Assembly (NCBI GenBank): GCA_025463365.1
Contig: JAOBWM010000197.1
Location: 1-42,510 of the forward strand
Length of the DNA stretch: 42,510 nt
Source: Acidimicrobiales bacterium
GTDB taxonomy: Bacteria > Actinomycetota > Acidimicrobiia > Acidimicrobiales > Iamiaceae
Reading direction: 5' to 3'
Made by a program: the position numbers and the translations under genes. Below are positions 4,775 through 42,510 of the stretch, piece after piece; the stretch's first letter is position 1, and each line of letters opens with the position of its first letter. A model generated the notes under the pieces. That model did not search any database. It was not told where the DNA came from and saw only the letters and a program-made list of their open reading frames with translations.

Positions 4775-5814
4775 CCGACACCGGGCCTCAGCCGGCGGCC
4801 ACGGCGACCTTCGCGTCGACGGCCGCCGGCGGAAGCGGTGGCGGGATTGGTGGCGCCAGGAATCTCGTCGTCGACCGGGCGCGTGATCGGGTGCCGGCCC
4901 TCGCGCAGGAGCCGGCGCCAGCGCTCCTGGTCGAAGGCGACCGGGTCGGTGTCGTCGATGAAGCCCGTGAGCACCTCGAGGAAGCGGTCGGGATCTTGGT
5001 GGTGCGGGAAGTGCCCAGCCTCCCCGAACACCTCGAGGCGGCTGCCGGGCATGGCGTCGTGGGCGATGTAGCCGTGCGAGACCGGGATCACCGCGTCGTG
5101 CGCGCCCCACACGAGTTGCACCGGCATCGCCTCGGCGAGGTAGCTGCGGTCGAGCATGGTGACCACCTGGCCGCGCCAGTCGACCACGGACCGCAGGGTG
5201 CGGCTGAACGCACCTCGCGCCGCCACGTCGGGCAGAGCATCGAGCACCCGGCCGAGCTCGTCGGCATCCCGACCGATGTCGGTGCCGCTGCGCCGCAGCA
5301 GTTCGATGGCGGCCATCGCTGCCAGGCGAGCAGGCGGGAACTTCAACATGGGCAGGACCACGTCGGCGGCGGGAGTGGAGGCCCAGCGCAGGGCGACGCT
5401 CACCTCGCGCGCGACCCCGCCGCTGGCCACCAGCGCGAGCCGGTCCACACGCGTCGGGTGCTGGTAGGTGAGCTGGGCGGCCACGCCGCCACCGAGGGAG
5501 TGGCCGACGACCGTCGCTGTGTCGAAGCCGAGGACATCGAGCAGGTCCCGCATGCCGTTGGCGTATGCCGCAACCGAGTAGTCGGCGCGGGGCTTGGCCG
5601 ACTCGCCGTGACCCAGCAGGTCGGGCGCGATGACCGTGAACCGCTCGGCCAACGGGCGCATCAGCGGGACCCAGCTCGCCGAGCTGTCCCCGATGCCGTG
5701 GAGCAGGAGCAGCGCCGGGCCCGAGCCACAGACGCGGTAGGCGCGCTCGTGGCCGTGGATCACCGTGAAGCGGGTGGTGGTGTCGAGATCGGTGGTGCGC
5801 CGACGTCTGGCCAT
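4555..5814 (-). CDS. Alpha/beta hydrolase, 3' end apparently frameshifted
   Basis: The hydrolase domain occupies residues about 12-290: strand GPALLLLHGIG (oxyanion region HG), nucleophile elbow VVGHSLGGG with the catalytic Ser, Asp in VWGAHDAVIP, and His in FGEAGHFPHH. It belongs with actinobacterial epoxide-hydrolase/haloalkane-dehalogenase-like alpha/beta hydrolases; the substrate is unknown. The reading frame continues to 4555, which adds about 100 Arg/Pro/Ser-rich residues unlike the rest and puts 220 bp antisense over the SHOCT gene. A one-base shift near 4854-4857 moves the frame to one that ends DAKVAVAAG with TGA at 4790-4788, 13 bp past the SHOCT stop, so the true 3' end is probably 4788. 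The start is the ATG at 5814 with a weak AGAGGA upstream. Confidence 0.8.
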   Translation of the reverse strand: MARRRRTTDLDTTTRFTVIHGHERAYRVCGSGPALLLLHGIGDSSASWVPLMRPLAERFTVIAPDLLGHGESAKPRADYSVAAYANGMRDLLDVLGFDTATVVGHSLGGGVAAQLTYQHPTRVDRLALVASGGVAREVSVALRWASTPAADVVLPMLKFPPARLAAMAAIELLRRSGTDIGRDADELGRVLDALPDVAARGAFSRTLRSVVDWRGQVVTMLDRSYLAEAMPVQLVWGAHDAVIPVSHGYIAHDAMPGSRLEVFGEAGHFPHHQDPDRFLEVLTGFIDDTDPVAFDQERWRRLLREGRHPITRPVDDEIPGATNPATASAGGRRREGRRGRRLRPGVGQSLLRKAARRWRYSGSSISPRAKRSARTDSPEWPDRCRQRRRPTVRKTRIHRAMKKIGARGKNGNQGPAWPW

Positions 5815-6050
5815 GGCGTGATCGTCGTCCTCTCACCGCCACGCGGGCGGAGCAGCGGCTCCCAGAGTGGCGCCAACGTACGCGCCCCATGTCACCCCAC
5901 CATCACTCGCCCGTGAACGCTCCATGACGCCGACCACGCGAACGACGGGAATGCCACCGATGACGCGAAACGGCCGGCCCGAAGGCCGGCCGTTCCGATT
6001 CTGGGCTCAGCTCACAGCCACCCCTGGGGGGGTGGGGCGGCCGGCGAACC
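5815..6050. other. Intergenic region between hydrolase and groEL
   Basis: This stretch is the upstream region of the hydrolase and the downstream region of groEL, both on the minus strand. It contains the groEL terminator hairpin. No ORF on either strand looks protein-like, and no -10 box at leaderless spacing stands out before the hydrolase ATG. Confidence 0.5.
5969..5994 (-). terminator. Terminator after groEL
   Basis: AACGGCCGGCC (5969-5979) and GGCCGGCCGTT (5984-5994) form a perfect 11-bp stem with a 4-nt CGAA loop. It lies 57 nt past the groEL stop. On the minus strand the stem is followed by a short TTT. Confidence 0.75.
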
Positions 6051-7785
<1,735 letters not shown>

Positions 7786-34982: not shown

Positions 34983-36380
34983 CTACCCGGCGGCGGTGAG
35001 GTTGTCGGCCAGCCAGTGCGCCGGCGTCCGTGCGAGCGATGCCTCGCGCAGCACCTTCGCCCGGCGGGTCCGCTCGATGGCCGGCGCGTCGAGCGCATCA
35101 GCGATCGCCGCCGCGGTGGCGCCGACGTCGAAGGGATCGGCGGCCCAGGCACCGTCGGCCAACTCCTCCCATGCCCCCGCCTCGGGAGACAGCACGAGCT
35201 GGCCGGCGCGCTGGTTGATCAGCATCGCTTCCTTGGCCACGAGGTTGAGGCCGTCGCGGACCGGGTTCACCAACACGACGTCGGCGCGGGCCAGCGCGGC
35301 CATCGAGCGCGGGTAGTCGTCATGGGGGTCGTAGTGGATCGGCTCCCAGCCATCGGTCCCGAACCGCCCGTTGATCTCCGAGACGCGGCGGGCCACGGCG
35401 TCGCGGTACCGGTCGTAGGCGGGAACGCCCTCGCGAGAGGGATAGACGAACGCACCGAACACGACCGTGCCGCGACGTTCGGGCTCGGCCTCCAACATCG
35501 CCGCGTAGGCATCGAACCCGCGCAGCACGTTCTTCGACAGCTCGATGCGGTCGACCCGCACCACGAACGCCCGGTCCCCCACCACCGCATCCAGGTCGGC
35601 GGACGCGGCCTGGGCGGCGGAGGACTCGATCGTCTCGCGGAGGTCGTCGGCGTCCGGGCCGAGGGGTGCCACGAAGGTGACAGGAGTCGCGGGGGCCGCC
35701 GGGCCCAGCGATCGGGCCGAGGCGGCGAAGTCGTCGGCCCACCGCTGGGTGTGGAAGCCGCACGCATGGTGCGCGGCCAGGCCGGCGAGGAGCTCGGTTC
35801 GCACGGGCACCGGCAGGAAGCGGAGCCACTGCGGCGGGGCGAACGGCGTGTGCGAGAAGTGCACGAGCCGCAGGTCGGGGCGCAGCTCGCGCAGCCGGGG
35901 AGCGACCAGGCAGAGGTGGTAGTCCTGGATGAGCACGGCCGCGCCCGCGGGCGCGTCGGTGGCGAGGGCGTCGGCGAAGCCGTGGTTCACGCGGCGGTGC
36001 GCGGCCCACGCGCCCTCCACCCAGCCACGGGGCCAGGCCGGCTCGTAGACCGGATCGAACAGGCCGTGGTGGGCGAACCAGAGGGCCTCGTTGCACACCG
36101 TGTCGTAGTGCGCCGCCCAGTCGTCGGGATCGAAGGCGAGGAGTCGGACCCGGAAGCCCTCGGCATCGGCGACGCCGACCGATGCCGCCGCCCGATCGCC
36201 GTCGCTCATGGCTGCGGCCACCCAGGTGGTCGCGGTCCCACGGACGAGCGGGCCGAGCCCCGACACCAGGCCACCGGCTCCGCGGCGCGCCACCGGCGTC
36301 CCGTCGTCGGCGAGCCGGTAGGAGACGGGACCCCGGTTCGAGACGATCACGATCGGCCGGTCGGCCGAGGATCCGGTCAT
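34983..36380 (-). CDS. otsA: Trehalose-6-phosphate synthase
   Basis: 465 residues, glycosyltransferase family 20. It shows IVIVSNRGPVSYR, GGLVSGLGPL, the WFAHHGLFDP block, VLIQDYHLCLVAPRLR, VHFSHTPFAPPQWLRFLP, VDRIELSKNVLRGFDAY, and the donor-binding VVLVNPVRDGLNLVAKEAM. It makes trehalose-6-phosphate from NDP-glucose and glucose-6-phosphate; OtsB, encoded just upstream, removes the phosphate. The family is usually ~450-500 residues, so it is full length. A TAGGGT box ends 6 nt before the ATG within the 30-bp otsB-otsA gap, so otsA can be transcribed on its own as a leaderless mRNA in addition to any read-through. Confidence 0.97.
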   Translation of the reverse strand: MTGSSADRPIVIVSNRGPVSYRLADDGTPVARRGAGGLVSGLGPLVRGTATTWVAAAMSDGDRAAASVGVADAEGFRVRLLAFDPDDWAAHYDTVCNEALWFAHHGLFDPVYEPAWPRGWVEGAWAAHRRVNHGFADALATDAPAGAAVLIQDYHLCLVAPRLRELRPDLRLVHFSHTPFAPPQWLRFLPVPVRTELLAGLAAHHACGFHTQRWADDFAASARSLGPAAPATPVTFVAPLGPDADDLRETIESSAAQAASADLDAVVGDRAFVVRVDRIELSKNVLRGFDAYAAMLEAEPERRGTVVFGAFVYPSREGVPAYDRYRDAVARRVSEINGRFGTDGWEPIHYDPHDDYPRSMAALARADVVLVNPVRDGLNLVAKEAMLINQRAGQLVLSPEAGAWEELADGAWAADPFDVGATAAAIADALDAPAIERTRRAKVLREASLARTPAHWLADNLTAAG

Positions 36381-37821: not shown

Positions 37822-38763
37822 TCAACCAGGGCGGAGGAACGCAAGGATCTCGACAGGGTCCGGCGTGATGCGAACGTGGGCCTCGAACGCGTCGTCCCCG
37901 AACAGCTCGCGCAACAGGGGTTCGACCAGCAGCCGCTCGGACCAGGCGCCTCCGGTGTCGAGGAAGACCATCGGGCTGAAGCGATCGCGGACGACCCGGT
38001 ACACGTTCTGGGCCGCGTCCTGGAACACCTCCTGGACGGTCCCGGCCCGACCCTCGGCGTAGACCACGCCGTCCTCGGCGATCGCCAGCAGCCCGTCCTC
38101 GCGCAGCGAGTTCGAGAAGTACTTGGCGATGTGGGACGCGAACGGGGTGGGCGGTTCGTGGCCGTAGAACCAGGTGGGCACGGCGAGGCTCTCGCCCCGC
38201 TGATCTGCCGGCAGCGCGGCGAGCAGCTCGAACGCGGGCCGCTGCCACGCGTGCAGGGCGGCAAGGGTCACGTCGTCCACGGCCCCACCCGGAGCGACGA
38301 GCCGCGACGTCGTTCCCGGGAACGCGGCGACGGTGGTGAGGTGCGCGATGGCGTCGGCGAGCGCACCGGCCGGGTGTCCCGCCAACAGTGCTCCGAGGTG
38401 GGTCGCCTCCATGGCCCCGGGCCCGCCGCCCGACACCACCAGCACGCCCTCGCGGGTGAGGTCCCGGGCGAGCGCCGCCACCTCCGCGTAGGCCGGCGCA
38501 TCGCGGCCGAGCGCGTGGCCGCCCATCACGGCGACGACGCGGCGGCCGAGGAGCAGGCTGTCGCGGGCATCGGTGATCGACTGGTCGTGCAGGGCCCGCA
38601 GCATGCCGACCTCACGCGAGGGGGCGAGGCGCGTCGACCGGTAGGCACGGAAGTCCGGGGTGCGCCCGTACGACGTCGGATCGTCCAGGTCGAAGCCGTC
38701 GAAGAGCTCGTCAGGGCCGTACACCTCGGACCGGAACGGCAGCACCGGGAAGGCATCCTGCAT
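37822..38763 (-). CDS. LOG-family (lysine decarboxylase-like) Rossmann protein
   Basis: 313 residues. The nucleotide-binding fold has VVAVMGGHALGR, the LVVSGGGPGAMEATHLGALL motif (family PGGxGTxxE-like first block, here GGGPGAMEA), and a second block VVYAEGRAGTVQEVFQDAAQN. In cytokinin-activating LOG enzymes these blocks hydrolyse the N-glycosidic bond of cytokinin ribotides; this longer bacterial subgroup is of unknown substrate. The C-terminal ~70 residues (RFSPMVFLDTGGAWSERLLVEPLLRELFGD) are shared by that subgroup. The start at 38763 is 24 bp from the divergent dioxygenase start; TACGGT lies 8 nt before it. It heads the minus-strand group with lytR_C, otsB, otsA and glycerate kinase, although promoters occur inside that group. 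Confidence 0.85.
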   Translation of the reverse strand: MQDAFPVLPFRSEVYGPDELFDGFDLDDPTSYGRTPDFRAYRSTRLAPSREVGMLRALHDQSITDARDSLLLGRRVVAVMGGHALGRDAPAYAEVAALARDLTREGVLVVSGGGPGAMEATHLGALLAGHPAGALADAIAHLTTVAAFPGTTSRLVAPGGAVDDVTLAALHAWQRPAFELLAALPADQRGESLAVPTWFYGHEPPTPFASHIAKYFSNSLREDGLLAIAEDGVVYAEGRAGTVQEVFQDAAQNVYRVVRDRFSPMVFLDTGGAWSERLLVEPLLRELFGDDAFEAHVRITPDPVEILAFLRPG

Positions 38764-38771
38764 GGCGGCCG

Positions 38772-38781
38772 ACCGTAGGCT
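38772..38781. promoter_or_regulatory. Overlapping divergent -10 boxes
   Basis: TAGGCT on the plus strand (38776-38781, 6 nt before ATG 38788) and TACGGT on the minus strand (38777-38772, 8 nt before ATG 38763) share the TA at 38776-38777. The two leaderless promoters cannot be occupied at once. Confidence 0.55.
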
Positions 38782-38787
38782 GCGGGC

Positions 38788-39558
38788 ATGCACGACGCCG
38801 CACCGACGGCCGCCCAGGTGGGGCACTTCCGCGCCACCGGCTGGCTGCTGACCCAGACCCTCGACGATGCCGGGGTGGCCGCGCTCCAGGGTTGGGTGGA
38901 CGAGGTCGCGGCTTGGCCCGACGACGACGGCGACTGGCTGCACCACCGCGAGCTCACCGACGACGGCCCCAAGCTCTGCCGGAGCGAGAACATCATCCCC
39001 TTCCATGACGGGTTACGCGCCCTGCTCACCGCGGGCAACCTGTTGGCGACGGCGTCAGCCCTGCTCGGCGAGCCGGCGGTCCTCTACAAGGAGAAGGTCA
39101 ACTACAAGCTGGCCGGCGGCGCGGGGTACGCGCCGCACCAGGACGCCCCGGCATACCCGTTCATCGCCAGCCACGTCTCGTGCATGGTCGCGGTCGACGA
39201 TGCCACCCTCGCCAACGGCTGCCTCGAGGTCGTCCCCGGGCTGCACGGCGAGGTGCTGGCCATGGACGGCGGCGGCTGCATCGACCCTGCCCTCGTCGCC
39301 TCCTACACGTGGGAGCCCGTCGAGGTCCCAGCCGGGTGGACCCTGTGGTTCCACTCGCGCACGCCGCACCGCAGCGGCCCGAACTCGTCGGGGGTGCCCC
39401 GGCGGGCCCTCTACCCCACCTACAACGCCGCGTCGGAGGGCGACCTCCGAGCCGACTACTACCGCGAGAAGCTCGCACGCTTCGCCACGGGCGGCCGGGC
39501 CGACGGCAAGGTCCAGGTCTCGCTGATCGACGACTTCCAGGGACGGTCGGCATCGTGA
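38788..39558 (+). CDS. Fe(II)/2-oxoglutarate dioxygenase, PhyH/PhnY/TmpA-like
   Basis: 256 residues, phytanoyl-CoA dioxygenase (PhyH) family. The iron-binding facial triad is His117-x-Asp119 (GYAPHQDAPAYPF) and His194 (RTPHRSGPN), with a likely 2-oxoglutarate-binding Arg in VPRRALYPTYN. KEKVNYKLAGGAG precedes the HxD as in PhyH proteins. Because the next gene, overlapping by 4 nt (GTGA), encodes a PhnZ-like HD oxygenase, this enzyme probably hydroxylates an organophosphonate next to the C-P bond, as PhnY and TmpA do. The substrate (2-aminoethylphosphonate, its trimethylammonio analogue, or another) cannot be read from sequence. Starts at ATG 38788 behind a TAGGCT box. No phosphonate transporter gene is in the window. 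Confidence 0.85.
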   Translation: MHDAAPTAAQVGHFRATGWLLTQTLDDAGVAALQGWVDEVAAWPDDDGDWLHHRELTDDGPKLCRSENIIPFHDGLRALLTAGNLLATASALLGEPAVLYKEKVNYKLAGGAGYAPHQDAPAYPFIASHVSCMVAVDDATLANGCLEVVPGLHGEVLAMDGGGCIDPALVASYTWEPVEVPAGWTLWFHSRTPHRSGPNSSGVPRRALYPTYNAASEGDLRADYYREKLARFATGGRADGKVQVSLIDDFQGRSAS

Positions 39559-40136
39559 GCTCGGCGGTGCCGGGCCCGGCCGCGTCGCCGGCCGCCTCGG
39601 TCGCCGACGTCCTGGCGCTGTTCGACGGGTTCGGACGCCGGCGCTACGACGAAGACGTCACCCAGCTCGAACACGCCCTGCAGGTCGCGGCGCTCGCTCG
39701 GTCGGAGGCCGCGGGCGACGCGCTCGTCGCCGCCGCACTCCTCCACGACGTCGGCCACCTGCTCGAGTTGCGCGACGGCGGGATCGACGACGGCCAGGTC
39801 GACGTCGACCTCGGCCACGAGGCAAGCGGGGCGCGGTGGCTCGCGCCGCTGTTCCCTGCCGCGGTGACCGGCCCGATCGCCCTGCACGTGGCGGCCAAGC
39901 GCTACCGCTGCGCCGTCGATCCGGCGTACCACGAGGGGCTCTCGACCGGTTCCACGCGGAGCCTCGTGCGCCAGGGCGGGCCGATGGACGACGTCGAACA
40001 GGCGAGGTTCGCCGCCCACCCCGGCGCCGACGACGCCGTGAGACTGCGCGGCTGGGACGACGGCGGCAAGGTCGACGGCGTGGTCGTCGACGACCTCGAC
40101 ACCTACGTCGACCTGCTGGAATCGCTCACCCGCTAG
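39555..40136 (+). CDS. PhnZ/TmpB-like HD-domain mixed-valent diiron oxygenase
   Basis: 193 residues. It is not a generic HD phosphohydrolase. The order LEHALQVAALA, LLHDVGHLL, GHEASGARWL, ALHVAAKRYRCAVDPAYHEGLS, SLVRQGGPM and GWDDGGKV follows PhnZ closely. Candidate diiron ligands are His40, His64-Asp65, His88, His111 and Asp168, with His68 and Lys115 at the places of the PhnZ active-site residues. Tyr31 and Glu33 lie just upstream where PhnZ has its gating Tyr and Glu. PhnZ and TmpB cleave a 1-hydroxy-phosphonate oxidatively to phosphate and a carboxylate (glycine or glycine betaine). The GTG start overlaps the stop of the hydroxylase gene, forming a two-enzyme unit. A hairpin follows. Confidence 0.85.
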   Translation: MSSAVPGPAASPAASVADVLALFDGFGRRRYDEDVTQLEHALQVAALARSEAAGDALVAAALLHDVGHLLELRDGGIDDGQVDVDLGHEASGARWLAPLFPAAVTGPIALHVAAKRYRCAVDPAYHEGLSTGSTRSLVRQGGPMDDVEQARFAAHPGADDAVRLRGWDDGGKVDGVVVDDLDTYVDLLESLTR

Positions 40137-40229: not shown

Positions 40230-42510
40230 TCAGGTGTTCTGGGCGTTCACGTAGTACTCGTTGGTGGCCGCGATCGCGATGGCCAGGTCGGCATCGCTCT
40301 GGGTGGTCAGCTTGCTGGTCCAGGAGGTGTACTCCGCCGTGGTCGGATCCCGGTGGAGCAGGAGCTGGAACTGGACCTTGGTGCGGCGACGCTTGGACTC
40401 GGTCGAGTTGTAGAGGTCGAGCGCCACCTGGCGACGGGTCGTCCCGCCGTTGATGGCGTTCACCCTGGCGGTGCGCTCCGCGGACGTGGGTGGGCGGGCG
40501 AGGATCGCCTGGAACGTCGCGTTCACGAACCCGGTGACGGTGCCACCCGACTTGGTGAGGTACTCGTTCGAGCCGATCAGGTTGAGCACGAGCGTCGAGA
40601 TGGGCAGGCCGTGTTGGACCTTGTTGGCCCAGTACTCCCGGCCGCTCGGGTCGGTCGCCCGGCCGAGGACGTCGAGGTACGCGCGGGTCACGACCTTCAC
40701 CGAGTACTCGTGGCTGCGGGCCATCTGCTTGGCGAACGACGCATGCGTCTCGGTGCCGTTGTCGACCCGGTTGGTCCAGAACGTGAGCCCACCGCTGTCC
40801 GCGAGCCGGCCGACGAAGTCGAGGAACACCTGCTCGACGAACGCCTGCGTGGGCGTCTGGACCGTGATGTCGACCGCCACGGTCGAGCCGTTGGCGGTCC
40901 CGTCGTTGGGCTTGTACGTGAAGGAGTCGGCGCCCAGGTAGTCGGTCGTCGGCGTGTAGGTGAACCCGCCGTTGGCGTTGAGCGTGACCGTGCCGTGCGA
41001 CGGGTTGGTCACCTTCACGGCGGTGAGGGTGTCGCCGTCGGAGTCGGTGTCGTTGGCCAGCACGCCGAGGGCGGCCGACTTGGTGAGGACCTTGTTCTTG
41101 ACCGCCCGGTAGGTGTCGACGGTCGAGGTCGGTGCCGAGTTCGAGCCGGTGAAGATGGTGCACGTCGCGGTCTGGATGTGCAGGGAGAAGGCGCGGATGC
41201 TGCCGGTGTCCTCGCCGTAGGCGTCGAACGCGTGCACCTTCCACGTGCCCTGCGGGTCCTCGCCGTCGAAGAGCGAGAGGGGCGTCGCCGGCTTCCAGGT
41301 CCCGGTGAAGGGCGGATCGGTGCTCGCCGTCTTCGCCTGGATGGGCGTGGCCGCGGCGTCGCTGAACACCGCCTGGCACATGTTGTGGCCGCTGTCACCG
41401 ATGCCCGAGAACAGCGTGATCTCGGTACCCGACGGCGACTCGAGGGTCACCGTGAGGTCCGAGATGAAGGTGTGGTCGATCCCGACCGTGGTGGAAGCCG
41501 CCGCGGTCGTGCACGAGCTGCCGTCGATGCTGAAGGTGAGGTCGGCGATGCGGCCGACGCTGCCCACGGCCACCGTTGCGGTGGCACCGGTGTCGTTGGC
41601 GTCGGGGATGGCCACCGGCGAGCCGGCGTAGGCGACGTTCGTGACCGGGCCCGGCGTGCCGATGGGGATCTTCACCGGGATCACGACCGTTGGCGCGTAG
41701 CCACCGGTGTAGTGGACGGTGATGTTGACCGTGAGCACCGATCCGCACGCGCAGGTCGTGGCGATCTTGAAGCGCAGCGGCCCGCCCGTGGGAGATGCGG
41801 TCCCGCCGCCCGACGCGATGTTCGGGTAGCTGACCGAGCTGGTGAGCACCACGGCGTCGCTCGTCGGCGATGCGAGGGTGGCGGTGACCCCCGTGGCGCT
41901 GGCCGCCCCGGTGTTCTTCAGGACCTGCGACAGGTTCACGGTCTCGCCCGGTTCGTAGGCGCCGTCGCCGTCACCCGGCGAGATGGTCTTCGTGAGCGCG
42001 CCCGCCTGCACGTTGGCCTTGGGCGTGGCCCCGATCGCCGCCATGAGGGCGGGGGCCATCACGATGCCGTTGCCGGCCACCGGGTCGATGCCGGCCGCCT
42101 CGATGTCGGTGGCCGAGCTCTTCATGGCCGACTCGAGCTGCGCCGGGGTCAGCGTCGGCTTCGCCTGCAGGGCCAGGGCCGCGATGGCCGCGACGTTCGG
42201 GGAGGCCGCTGACGTCCCGAAGAACGGGATGAAGCCGGGTGTCGTGGTGCCCACGCCGTCGGCGCCCGTCACATCGGGACCGTTGAGGGGGGTCCCACCG
42301 GTGTGGGTGACGTTGCCGGGGGTGATGGCGGTGCCGGTGCTCGCGAAGAACTTGCGGATCGGACCGTCGCGGGTGAAGAGCTCCGAGAGGTCCGAGCCGG
42401 AGTGTTGACCGACGCCCGGGCTCACGTAGGGGCCGGCGGGGCTGGCGCCCGACCTCTTCGTCCGAGCGGGGGTGGCCGAGACCGAGACGGCGTCGGCGCT
42501 GCCGTTGTGG
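40230..42510 (-). CDS. Subtilisin-like (S8) secreted protease with P domain and DUF4214 tail (partial)
   Basis: The gene runs off the right edge; about 760 codons are present, open to the last base. The catalytic Ser motif is [17 protein letters not shown], followed by [31 protein letters not shown]; the Asp and His of the triad would lie outside the window. The order after that is a beta-rich domain (CARDB-like, [29 protein letters not shown]), a P-proprotein domain ([11 protein letters not shown]...[27 protein letters not shown]...[23 protein letters not shown]), a VCBS/Ig-like repeat ([36 protein letters not shown]), and DUF4214 repeats at the C-terminus ([29 protein letters not shown]...). 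A secreted, cell-associated protease is implied; a GTG at 42425 is internal, not the true start. Confidence 0.88.

Follow-up and report, generated by a model that had tools for sequence, protein, structure and literature searches.

A PhyH dioxygenase–HD oxygenase gene pair of Acidimicrobiales predicted to cleave carbon–phosphorus bonds oxidatively

The window analysed here, the whole stretch of 42,510 nucleotides from an Acidimicrobiales genome, carries two overlapping genes on its forward strand. The upstream gene, at positions 38788–39558 (stop codon at 39556–39558), encodes a PhyH-type Fe(II)/2-oxoglutarate dioxygenase of 256 aa, as indicated by PF05721, NF052437 and the predicted model. 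The downstream gene, at 39555–40136 (stop codon TAG at 40134–40136), encodes an HD-domain protein of 193 aa which is predicted, from the profiles TIGR03276, NF052439 and NF049941 and from its fold, to be a C–P cleaving diiron oxygenase. The two reading frames share the tetranucleotide GTGA (39555–39558, forward strand), in which the stop codon of the first gene overlaps the start codon of the second, and both lie where an earlier note on this DNA, which had described them as a two-gene unit, had placed them. The overlap suggests that translation of the two genes is coupled. The same arrangement, PhyH followed by HD with a 4-nt overlap, was found in 54 of the 77 loci that possess an HD gene, among 81 loci examined (the window and 80 loci from named genomes, i.e. 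the best 80 of 254 relatives of the PhyH protein), and being so common it is not a matter of chance.

A −10-like hexamer, TAGGCT, is located at 38776–38781 on the forward strand, 6 nt 5′ of the PhyH ATG. The pattern TANNNT occurs in a like placement in 26 of the 81 loci, compared with 157 of the 12,718 ATGs (1.2%) in those loci, all starts being script-assigned; judging from this placement, the PhyH transcript may be leaderless. The start of a divergent gene (37825–38763) lies only 24 nt from the PhyH ATG. It does adjoin the pair, as previously described, but the evidence for naming it 'LOG family' is weak (with Pfam LDcluster4 it scores 23.3 bits, below the cut-off of 26.3; no NCBIfam match at E 0.001). 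A LOG-like gene adjoins the pair in only three of the 81 loci (the window, L077 and L082), and it was consequently rejected as a functional partner. Of the other neighbouring frames, that at 34983–36380 (reverse strand) resembles by eye a trehalose-phosphate synthase, and that at 40230–42425 (reverse strand) a large secreted repeat protein. No phosphonate gene was found near the pair between 28000 and 42510, in agreement with the absence of neighbouring phosphonate transport genes noted before.

The dioxygenase has the HxD iron ligands H117 and D119 (39136–39144), a role assigned from the family, the third iron ligand H194 (39367–39369), assigned by alignment, and R205 (39400–39402), the candidate arginine for binding 2-oxoglutarate. 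All four residues are invariant in an alignment of 16 PhyH sequences, window included, and the pattern HxD..H..R is present in 81 of 81 loci. The protein matches PF05721 with 86.8 bits (cut-off 22, passed), and its only strong curated match is the methylphosphonate hydroxylase model NF052437, with 266.8 bits and hence short of the cut-off of 500. NF052437 matches all 16 aligned dioxygenases; at E ≤ 1e-40 it is matched in 15 of the 396 genomes sampled across the phylum, 13 of them in Acidimicrobiales, and its cut-off is reached in none of the 396. The predicted structure (pLDDT 93.3) most resembles Fe/2OG hydroxylases, e.g. proline hydroxylase H11 (Z 25.5). The protein is therefore predicted to be the α-hydroxylase of a small phosphonate.

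In the HD protein, alignment with PhnZ and TmpB provides a full set of candidate diiron ligands, namely H40 (39672–39674), H64-D65 (39744–39749), H88 (39816–39818), H111 (39885–39899, together with K115 in the motif HVAAKRY) and D168 (40056–40058). These, like H117, D119 and H194 of its partner, are all present at the numbers given in the earlier note; they are invariant, along with Y31, E33 and K115, in an alignment of 16 HD sequences including that of the window, and the ligand pattern H...HD...H...H...D is kept in 77 of 77 HD genes from the window and the named loci. TIGR03276 (phosphonate degradation HD-domain oxygenase, Phn-HD), the family against which the earlier note had proposed a profile search, is its best curated profile, at 198.1 bits, though under the cut-off of 214.6; it is followed by NF052439 (hydroxymethylphosphonate dioxygenase, 171.5 bits) and NF049941 (TmpB, 137.5 bits), both with a cut-off of 300 that was likewise missed. 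Each of the three profiles matches 16 of the 16 aligned HD proteins. Among PDB sequences at E ≤ 1, TmpB (E 7e-27) and PhnZ (E 1.1e-21) are the sole matches of the HD protein, whose identity with the PhnZ structures is 32–35%. Its AlphaFold2 model (pLDDT 90.6) retrieved from Foldseek, at E ≤ 0.001, TmpB and PhnZ chains only (10 of 10) and no hydrolase. The overlay on PhnZ proposed in the earlier note gave, with VIA-align, a Z score of 24.5 (rmsd 1.9 over 172 aligned residues; range for PhnZ, Z 23.6–24.5), compared with 24.4 for TmpB, 11.7 and 10.9 for myo-inositol oxygenase (MIOX), and at most 9.4 for the remaining structures listed. The predicted fold of the HD protein is thus far nearer to PhnZ and TmpB than to MIOX or to HD hydrolases.

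PhnZ and TmpB carry a YxxE lid (PMC8177086, available text). The corresponding gate of the window protein is Y31-x-E33 (39645–39653, forward strand), located by alignment; both residues are invariant in 16 of 16 sequences, and the literal YxxE spacing is absent. The shorter spacing prevails among relatives: in a check of 117 HD genes, in which some loci were counted twice, YxE was found in 100, YxxE in four and no such motif in 13. Three of the four genes scored as YxxE read YYSE, and therefore contain YxE as well. YxxE is present in the Variovorax, Nostoc and Hymenobacter proteins and in a TmpB homologue, YxE in the Rhodococcus and Dietzia plasmid homologues, and neither in the Asticcacaulis one.

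The pairing extends across the order. In a sample of 397 Acidimicrobiales genomes (thresholds E ≤ 1e-40 for PhyH and E ≤ 1e-15 for HD), the dioxygenase was found in 57 and the HD protein in 116. An HD gene of either of the two types described below lies within 300 nt of the dioxygenase gene in 53 of the 57 carriers, i.e. in 53 of the 397 genomes, while the proximity expected by chance is, as a rough figure, about 0.001 per genome. The four exceptions are G084, where the two genes are 3.9 kb apart with phnDCE in between, G172 and G340, where the match is near a contig end, and G186, where it is partial. The PhyH–HD pair is a stable unit of Acidimicrobiales. In four of the genomes with both genes (G134, G325, G019 and G255) a single frame, of the same open length for either match, holds PhyH and HD together. 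The fusion of G134 (locus L180) is 517 aa long, its first half best matching NF052437 (245 bits) and its second the hydroxymethylphosphonate dioxygenase model (217 bits), both below cut-off. Equality of open-frame length alone does not prove a fusion, because in G245 the lengths are equal and the frames different; this genome was left out of the count. In L180, the fused gene (5269–6819, reverse strand) is divergent from a second PhyH copy (6942–7709, forward strand).

Among the 81 loci, an HD gene was found in 77 and none at L088, L089, L129 and L144; automatic gene calling frequently picked the frame antisense to HD, and the neighbour gene lists are approximate. The record titles of 78 of the 80 named loci give actinobacterial taxa, the exceptions being L104 and L150. 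Some titles look wrong: seven metagenome-assembled genome (MAG) records titled Bifidobacterium breve (L092, L100, L116, L119, L124, L125 and L151) and the Acidobacteria-titled record L150 carry Acidimicrobiales genes. A search of plasmids returned 43 records with relatives, all below 60% identity. No PhyH relative was confirmed in viral contigs and there was no match in phage records; for the HD protein, one viral contig gave a weak hit, at 32% over 75 residues. Two plasmids, those of Rhodococcus sp. NJ-530 (L155) and Dietzia (pI, L156), hold a related PhyH–HD pair in a common cluster with a methionine-synthase-II-like protein, another 2OG oxygenase, a YaaH-type transporter and a MurR/RpiR regulator, and with no obvious phosphonate genes.

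Phosphonate genes do accompany some relatives of the pair. One case is L174 (genome G084), where PhnE (490.5 bits, cut-off 216.7) and PhnC (277 bits, cut-off 266.1) both pass, and a PhnD-type binding protein scores 178.7 bits with TIGR01098 (subfamily cut-off 112.05, passed) and 170.6 bits with PhnD itself (cut-off 261.1, missed). This locus also holds a PhnM-like gene, an HD gene and, divergently oriented, a distant PhyH gene whose product is 41% identical to that of the window. At L180 a PhnD-type gene stands next to PhnC- and PhnE-like ones, and in L177 phnDCE are found near an HD gene of the gate-less type described below. For the 80 named loci, context was counted with PhnC-like matches of about 30–35% identity disregarded as generic ABC ATPases. 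PhnE-like genes are present in four (L130, L138, L143 and L148). A binding protein and a permease like those for 2-aminoethylphosphonate (AEP), below cut-off, are present in six (L092, L100, L101, L104, L107 and L150), and L142 is a seventh such locus, which is cut off. In this clade the binding protein and the ATPase best match the AEP ABC models, again below cut-off, and the permease is ambiguous (sulfate 48.0 bits, AEP 47.1). A PehA-like ester hydrolase adjoins the pair in seven (L109, L118, L120, L125, L137, L139 and L140). The other 62 of the 80 show none of these three contexts in the available flank; these are raw counts, and the flanks are often short.

The host genome of the window, assigned to the Acidimicrobiales by way of Aquihabitans, is 98.4% complete; the corresponding proteins of Aquihabitans sp. 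G128 (NZ_CP077604.1) are 83% and 72% identical to the two of the window. Neither PhnJ (C–P lyase) nor PEP mutase was detected in it; there was no TmpA match at E 1e-50, no PhnE over the cut-off (best 36.3 bits against 216.7), and a PhnT2 match of 387.7 bits below the cut-off of 457.7. Two proteins match PF12974, at 31.0 bits (cut-off 27, passed) and 26 bits; both (contigs C29 and C155) were rejected as a phosphonate transporter, their operons looking by eye urea/guanidine-type and taurine-type. The genome also encodes, on another contig, a PehA-like phosphate/phosphonate ester hydrolase (C81:17677–19179, L197; 508 bits, cut-off 900), which is a candidate feeder enzyme.

We infer that the two proteins constitute one oxidative C–P cleavage unit working like PhnY*/PhnZ, and assign to this reading, which was also that of the earlier note, a probability of roughly 0.87. 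The profiles, the solved relatives, the predicted fold, the pairing across the order, the fusions and the phosphonate transporters of relatives all agree with it; against it stand the facts that neither protein reaches the cut-off of any phosphonate family, that no sampled genome of the phylum attains the methylphosphonate hydroxylase cut-off, that the gate is YxE, that the host has no clear phosphonate transporter, that 62 of the 80 named loci show no phosphonate context and the Rhodococcus and Dietzia plasmid clusters no obvious phosphonate genes, and that the PhyH gene of L174 is a distant one. The PhyH-fold enzyme, using Fe(II), O2 and 2-oxoglutarate, would hydroxylate the carbon adjoining phosphorus. 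The α-hydroxyphosphonate would then be held by the iron centre of the HD enzyme, presumably mixed-valent and diiron, by K115 and by the Y31/E33 lid, and the enzyme would activate O2 and split the C–P bond, giving phosphate and a carboxylate. With methylphosphonate, the sequence would run through hydroxymethylphosphonate to formate and phosphate. The pair might thereby provide a route for scavenging phosphate in a genome with no C–P lyase detected.

Several characterized systems are comparable. GmPhnY*/GmPhnZ (PhnZ1) of Gimesia maris and PhnY/PhnZ of Prochlorococcus MIT9301 convert methylphosphonate to formate and phosphate and, like the window, combine a PhyH-type hydroxylase and an HD oxygenase in tandem. 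By comparison through curated models only, the Gimesia-type models are the nearest for the window dioxygenase (266.8 bits of a cut-off of 500) and the second nearest for the HD protein (171.5 of 300); the window, however, is from a different phylum and lacks the ptxABC transporter genes described beside phnYZ (PMC6581173, available text). PhnY*/PhnZ of HF130_AEPn_1 acts on 2-aminoethylphosphonate. Its PhnZ and the window HD protein have in common the fold, the diiron ligand set and the Lys, Tyr and Glu residues, and differ in the Tyr–Glu spacing, which is one residue shorter in the window (PhnZ spacing from the available text of PMC8177086). Resemblance to TmpB of Leisingera caerulea is also close (E 7e-27, Z 24.4), but TmpA belongs to the TauD family whereas the partner in the window is a PhyH protein, and the TmpB model is matched with only 137.5 of 300 bits. 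The earlier note had left open a PhnY/PhnZ-like or a TmpA/TmpB-like pair; the PhyH partner favours the former, and the TauD-family nature of TmpA, with no match in the genome at E 1e-50, speaks against the latter. The Phn-HD family of C–P lyase operons, as noted, supplies the best profile (198.1 of 214.6 bits). Its Variovorax and Nostoc members (227.1 and 250.6 bits) are inside phn C–P lyase clusters, have YxxE spacing and, among the neighbouring genes listed with annotation, are accompanied by no hydroxylase. Finally, PhoF of Fonsecaea is a fusion of PhnY and PhnZ (PMC10574752, available text), in this respect like L180 and the triple fusion described below; it is a single fungal protein, whereas the window has two genes.

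As regards the substrate, the PhnY* hydroxylase is the specific step and PhnZ is more tolerant (PMC10574752, available text), and it is therefore the NF052437 match of the dioxygenase that carries any proposal. On this basis methylphosphonate would be the most likely substrate, at about even odds; the assignment is only a guess, because that match is below the cut-off. A possibly new substrate had been suggested earlier; this suggestion finds no support, as the nearest curated models point, though below cut-off, to methylphosphonate. The same chemistry could have 2-aminoethylphosphonate as its natural substrate, as in PhnY/PhnZ proper, with glycine and phosphate as products. E33 is invariant, and the matching Glu of PhnZ and TmpB bonds the amino group of the substrate (PMC8177086, available text); the AEP-like transporter of one clade of relatives points the same way. 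AepX reportedly is specific for 2-aminoethylphosphonate and binds methylphosphonate poorly (PMC8316502, available text), and that clade may therefore differ in substrate. We consider 2-aminoethylphosphonate rather unlikely for the window, since the only strong curated match of the dioxygenase is the methylphosphonate hydroxylase (a one-sided comparison, no AEP-type PhnY model being among the matches), and since the HD protein scores higher with the hydroxymethylphosphonate model than with that of TmpB. Some other phosphonate is to be regarded as unlikely to the same degree.

Alternatively, the compound hydroxylated and cleaved by the pair could be something other than a phosphonate; as with MIOX, the oxygenase fold of the HD protein would then have been turned to a different bond. 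The lack of a phosphonate gene beside the pair in the window and the company kept by the Rhodococcus and Dietzia relatives would fit this idea, but the phnDCE, PhnM-like and AEP-like transporter genes and the PehA-like hydrolases beside other relatives, together with a fold far nearer to PhnZ and TmpB than to MIOX, make it improbable. Most improbable of all, to the point of being hardly credible, is a conventional phosphohydrolase activity of the HD protein, with no more than proximity to a PhyH enzyme. The protein does contain a generic HD domain (PF01966, 24.8 bits, cut-off 22), yet Foldseek returned no hydrolase at E ≤ 0.001, and the best non-oxygenase fold match of the model has a Z of 9.4. 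With PhnZ and TmpB as the only solved sequence relatives, fold and sequence therefore make a strong case against a phosphohydrolase, and the pairing in 53 of 57 carriers and the PhyH–HD fusions add to it. The earlier expectation that the protein is not a phosphohydrolase is thus borne out, with the Lys, Tyr and Glu residues kept and the Tyr–Glu spacing one shorter.

The HD component of the pair comes in two types. In 13 of the 77 HD genes of the window and the named loci, the gate tyrosine is missing and the ligand pattern is kept (L145:7420–7953, L108, L099, L115, L126, L128, L133, L139, L141, L147, L151, L152 and L154). Such gate-less proteins score 115–127 bits with TIGR03276 (three tested) and match PhnZ with E 6e-18 (one tested). 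Position differs as well: gate-less HD genes are upstream of PhyH in 12 of 13 cases and on the opposite strand in one, whereas gated genes are downstream in 64 of 64. On a PhyH tree of the window and the 80 named loci (11 further rows were dropped, including the long-branched L175 and L174 and the fused L180), the two partner types require at least two changes, as judged from a quick tree with weak deep branches; exchange of HD partners around the PhyH enzyme is therefore likely, though not proved.

To the best of our knowledge of the literature searched, in the text available, there is no report of phnY/phnZ in Acidimicrobiales; the chemistry proposed for the pair is already known, and what appears unreported is its occurrence in this order. 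Of the phnZ homologues surveyed in PMC10574752, 81.6% are in Alpha-, Beta- and Gammaproteobacteria, and its available text names no actinobacterial phnZ. One Acidimicrobiia isolate has phnCDE and phnA, and the terms 'phytanoyl' and 'HD domain' are absent from the available text of that paper (PMC12263773). In Flathead Lake, Ilumatobacteraceae are among the carriers of phnJ (PMC10734540, in whose available text the term phnZ does not appear); the genome studied here is an Acidimicrobiales genome with the oxidative pair and with no phnJ detected. C–P lyase converts methylphosphonate to methane, one proposed source of this gas in oxygenated water, whereas the oxidative pair yields formate (PMC6581173, available text). 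Should methylphosphonate be the substrate, estimates of lake methane derived from methylphosphonate would need an oxidative term.

A further combination of related domains is a protein of 783 aa at L069:7957–10305 (forward strand), in which a type I phosphodiesterase-like domain (PF01663, 81.7 bits), a PhnZ/TmpB-like HD domain (Phn-HD, 157 bits) and a TmpA-like TauD domain (TmpA, 316.5 bits, cut-off 400) are joined. Fusions of about 780 aa are also present in L068, L070, L071, L072 and L074 (L069 and L070 were assigned by profile, the others by clustering). At least 15 of the 397 genomes have their HD and TmpA matches within a single frame, equally long for both, the frame being at least 756 aa long in 14 of these and 568 aa, too short for a phosphodiesterase domain, in G335; in G281, the TmpA match ran across a stop. 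From its domains, the triple fusion could possibly open an ester, hydroxylate and cleave the C–P bond in one chain. As a speculation that we hold to be doubtful, Acidimicrobiales may have rebuilt the oxidative route in several ways, with one PhyH enzyme served by a YxE-gated or an upstream gate-less HD protein and, in addition, the triple fusion acting on phosphonate esters, and would then represent an overlooked, methane-free freshwater sink for methylphosphonate and its esters. Several of the named relatives of the pair are, according to their record titles, lake or pond MAGs.
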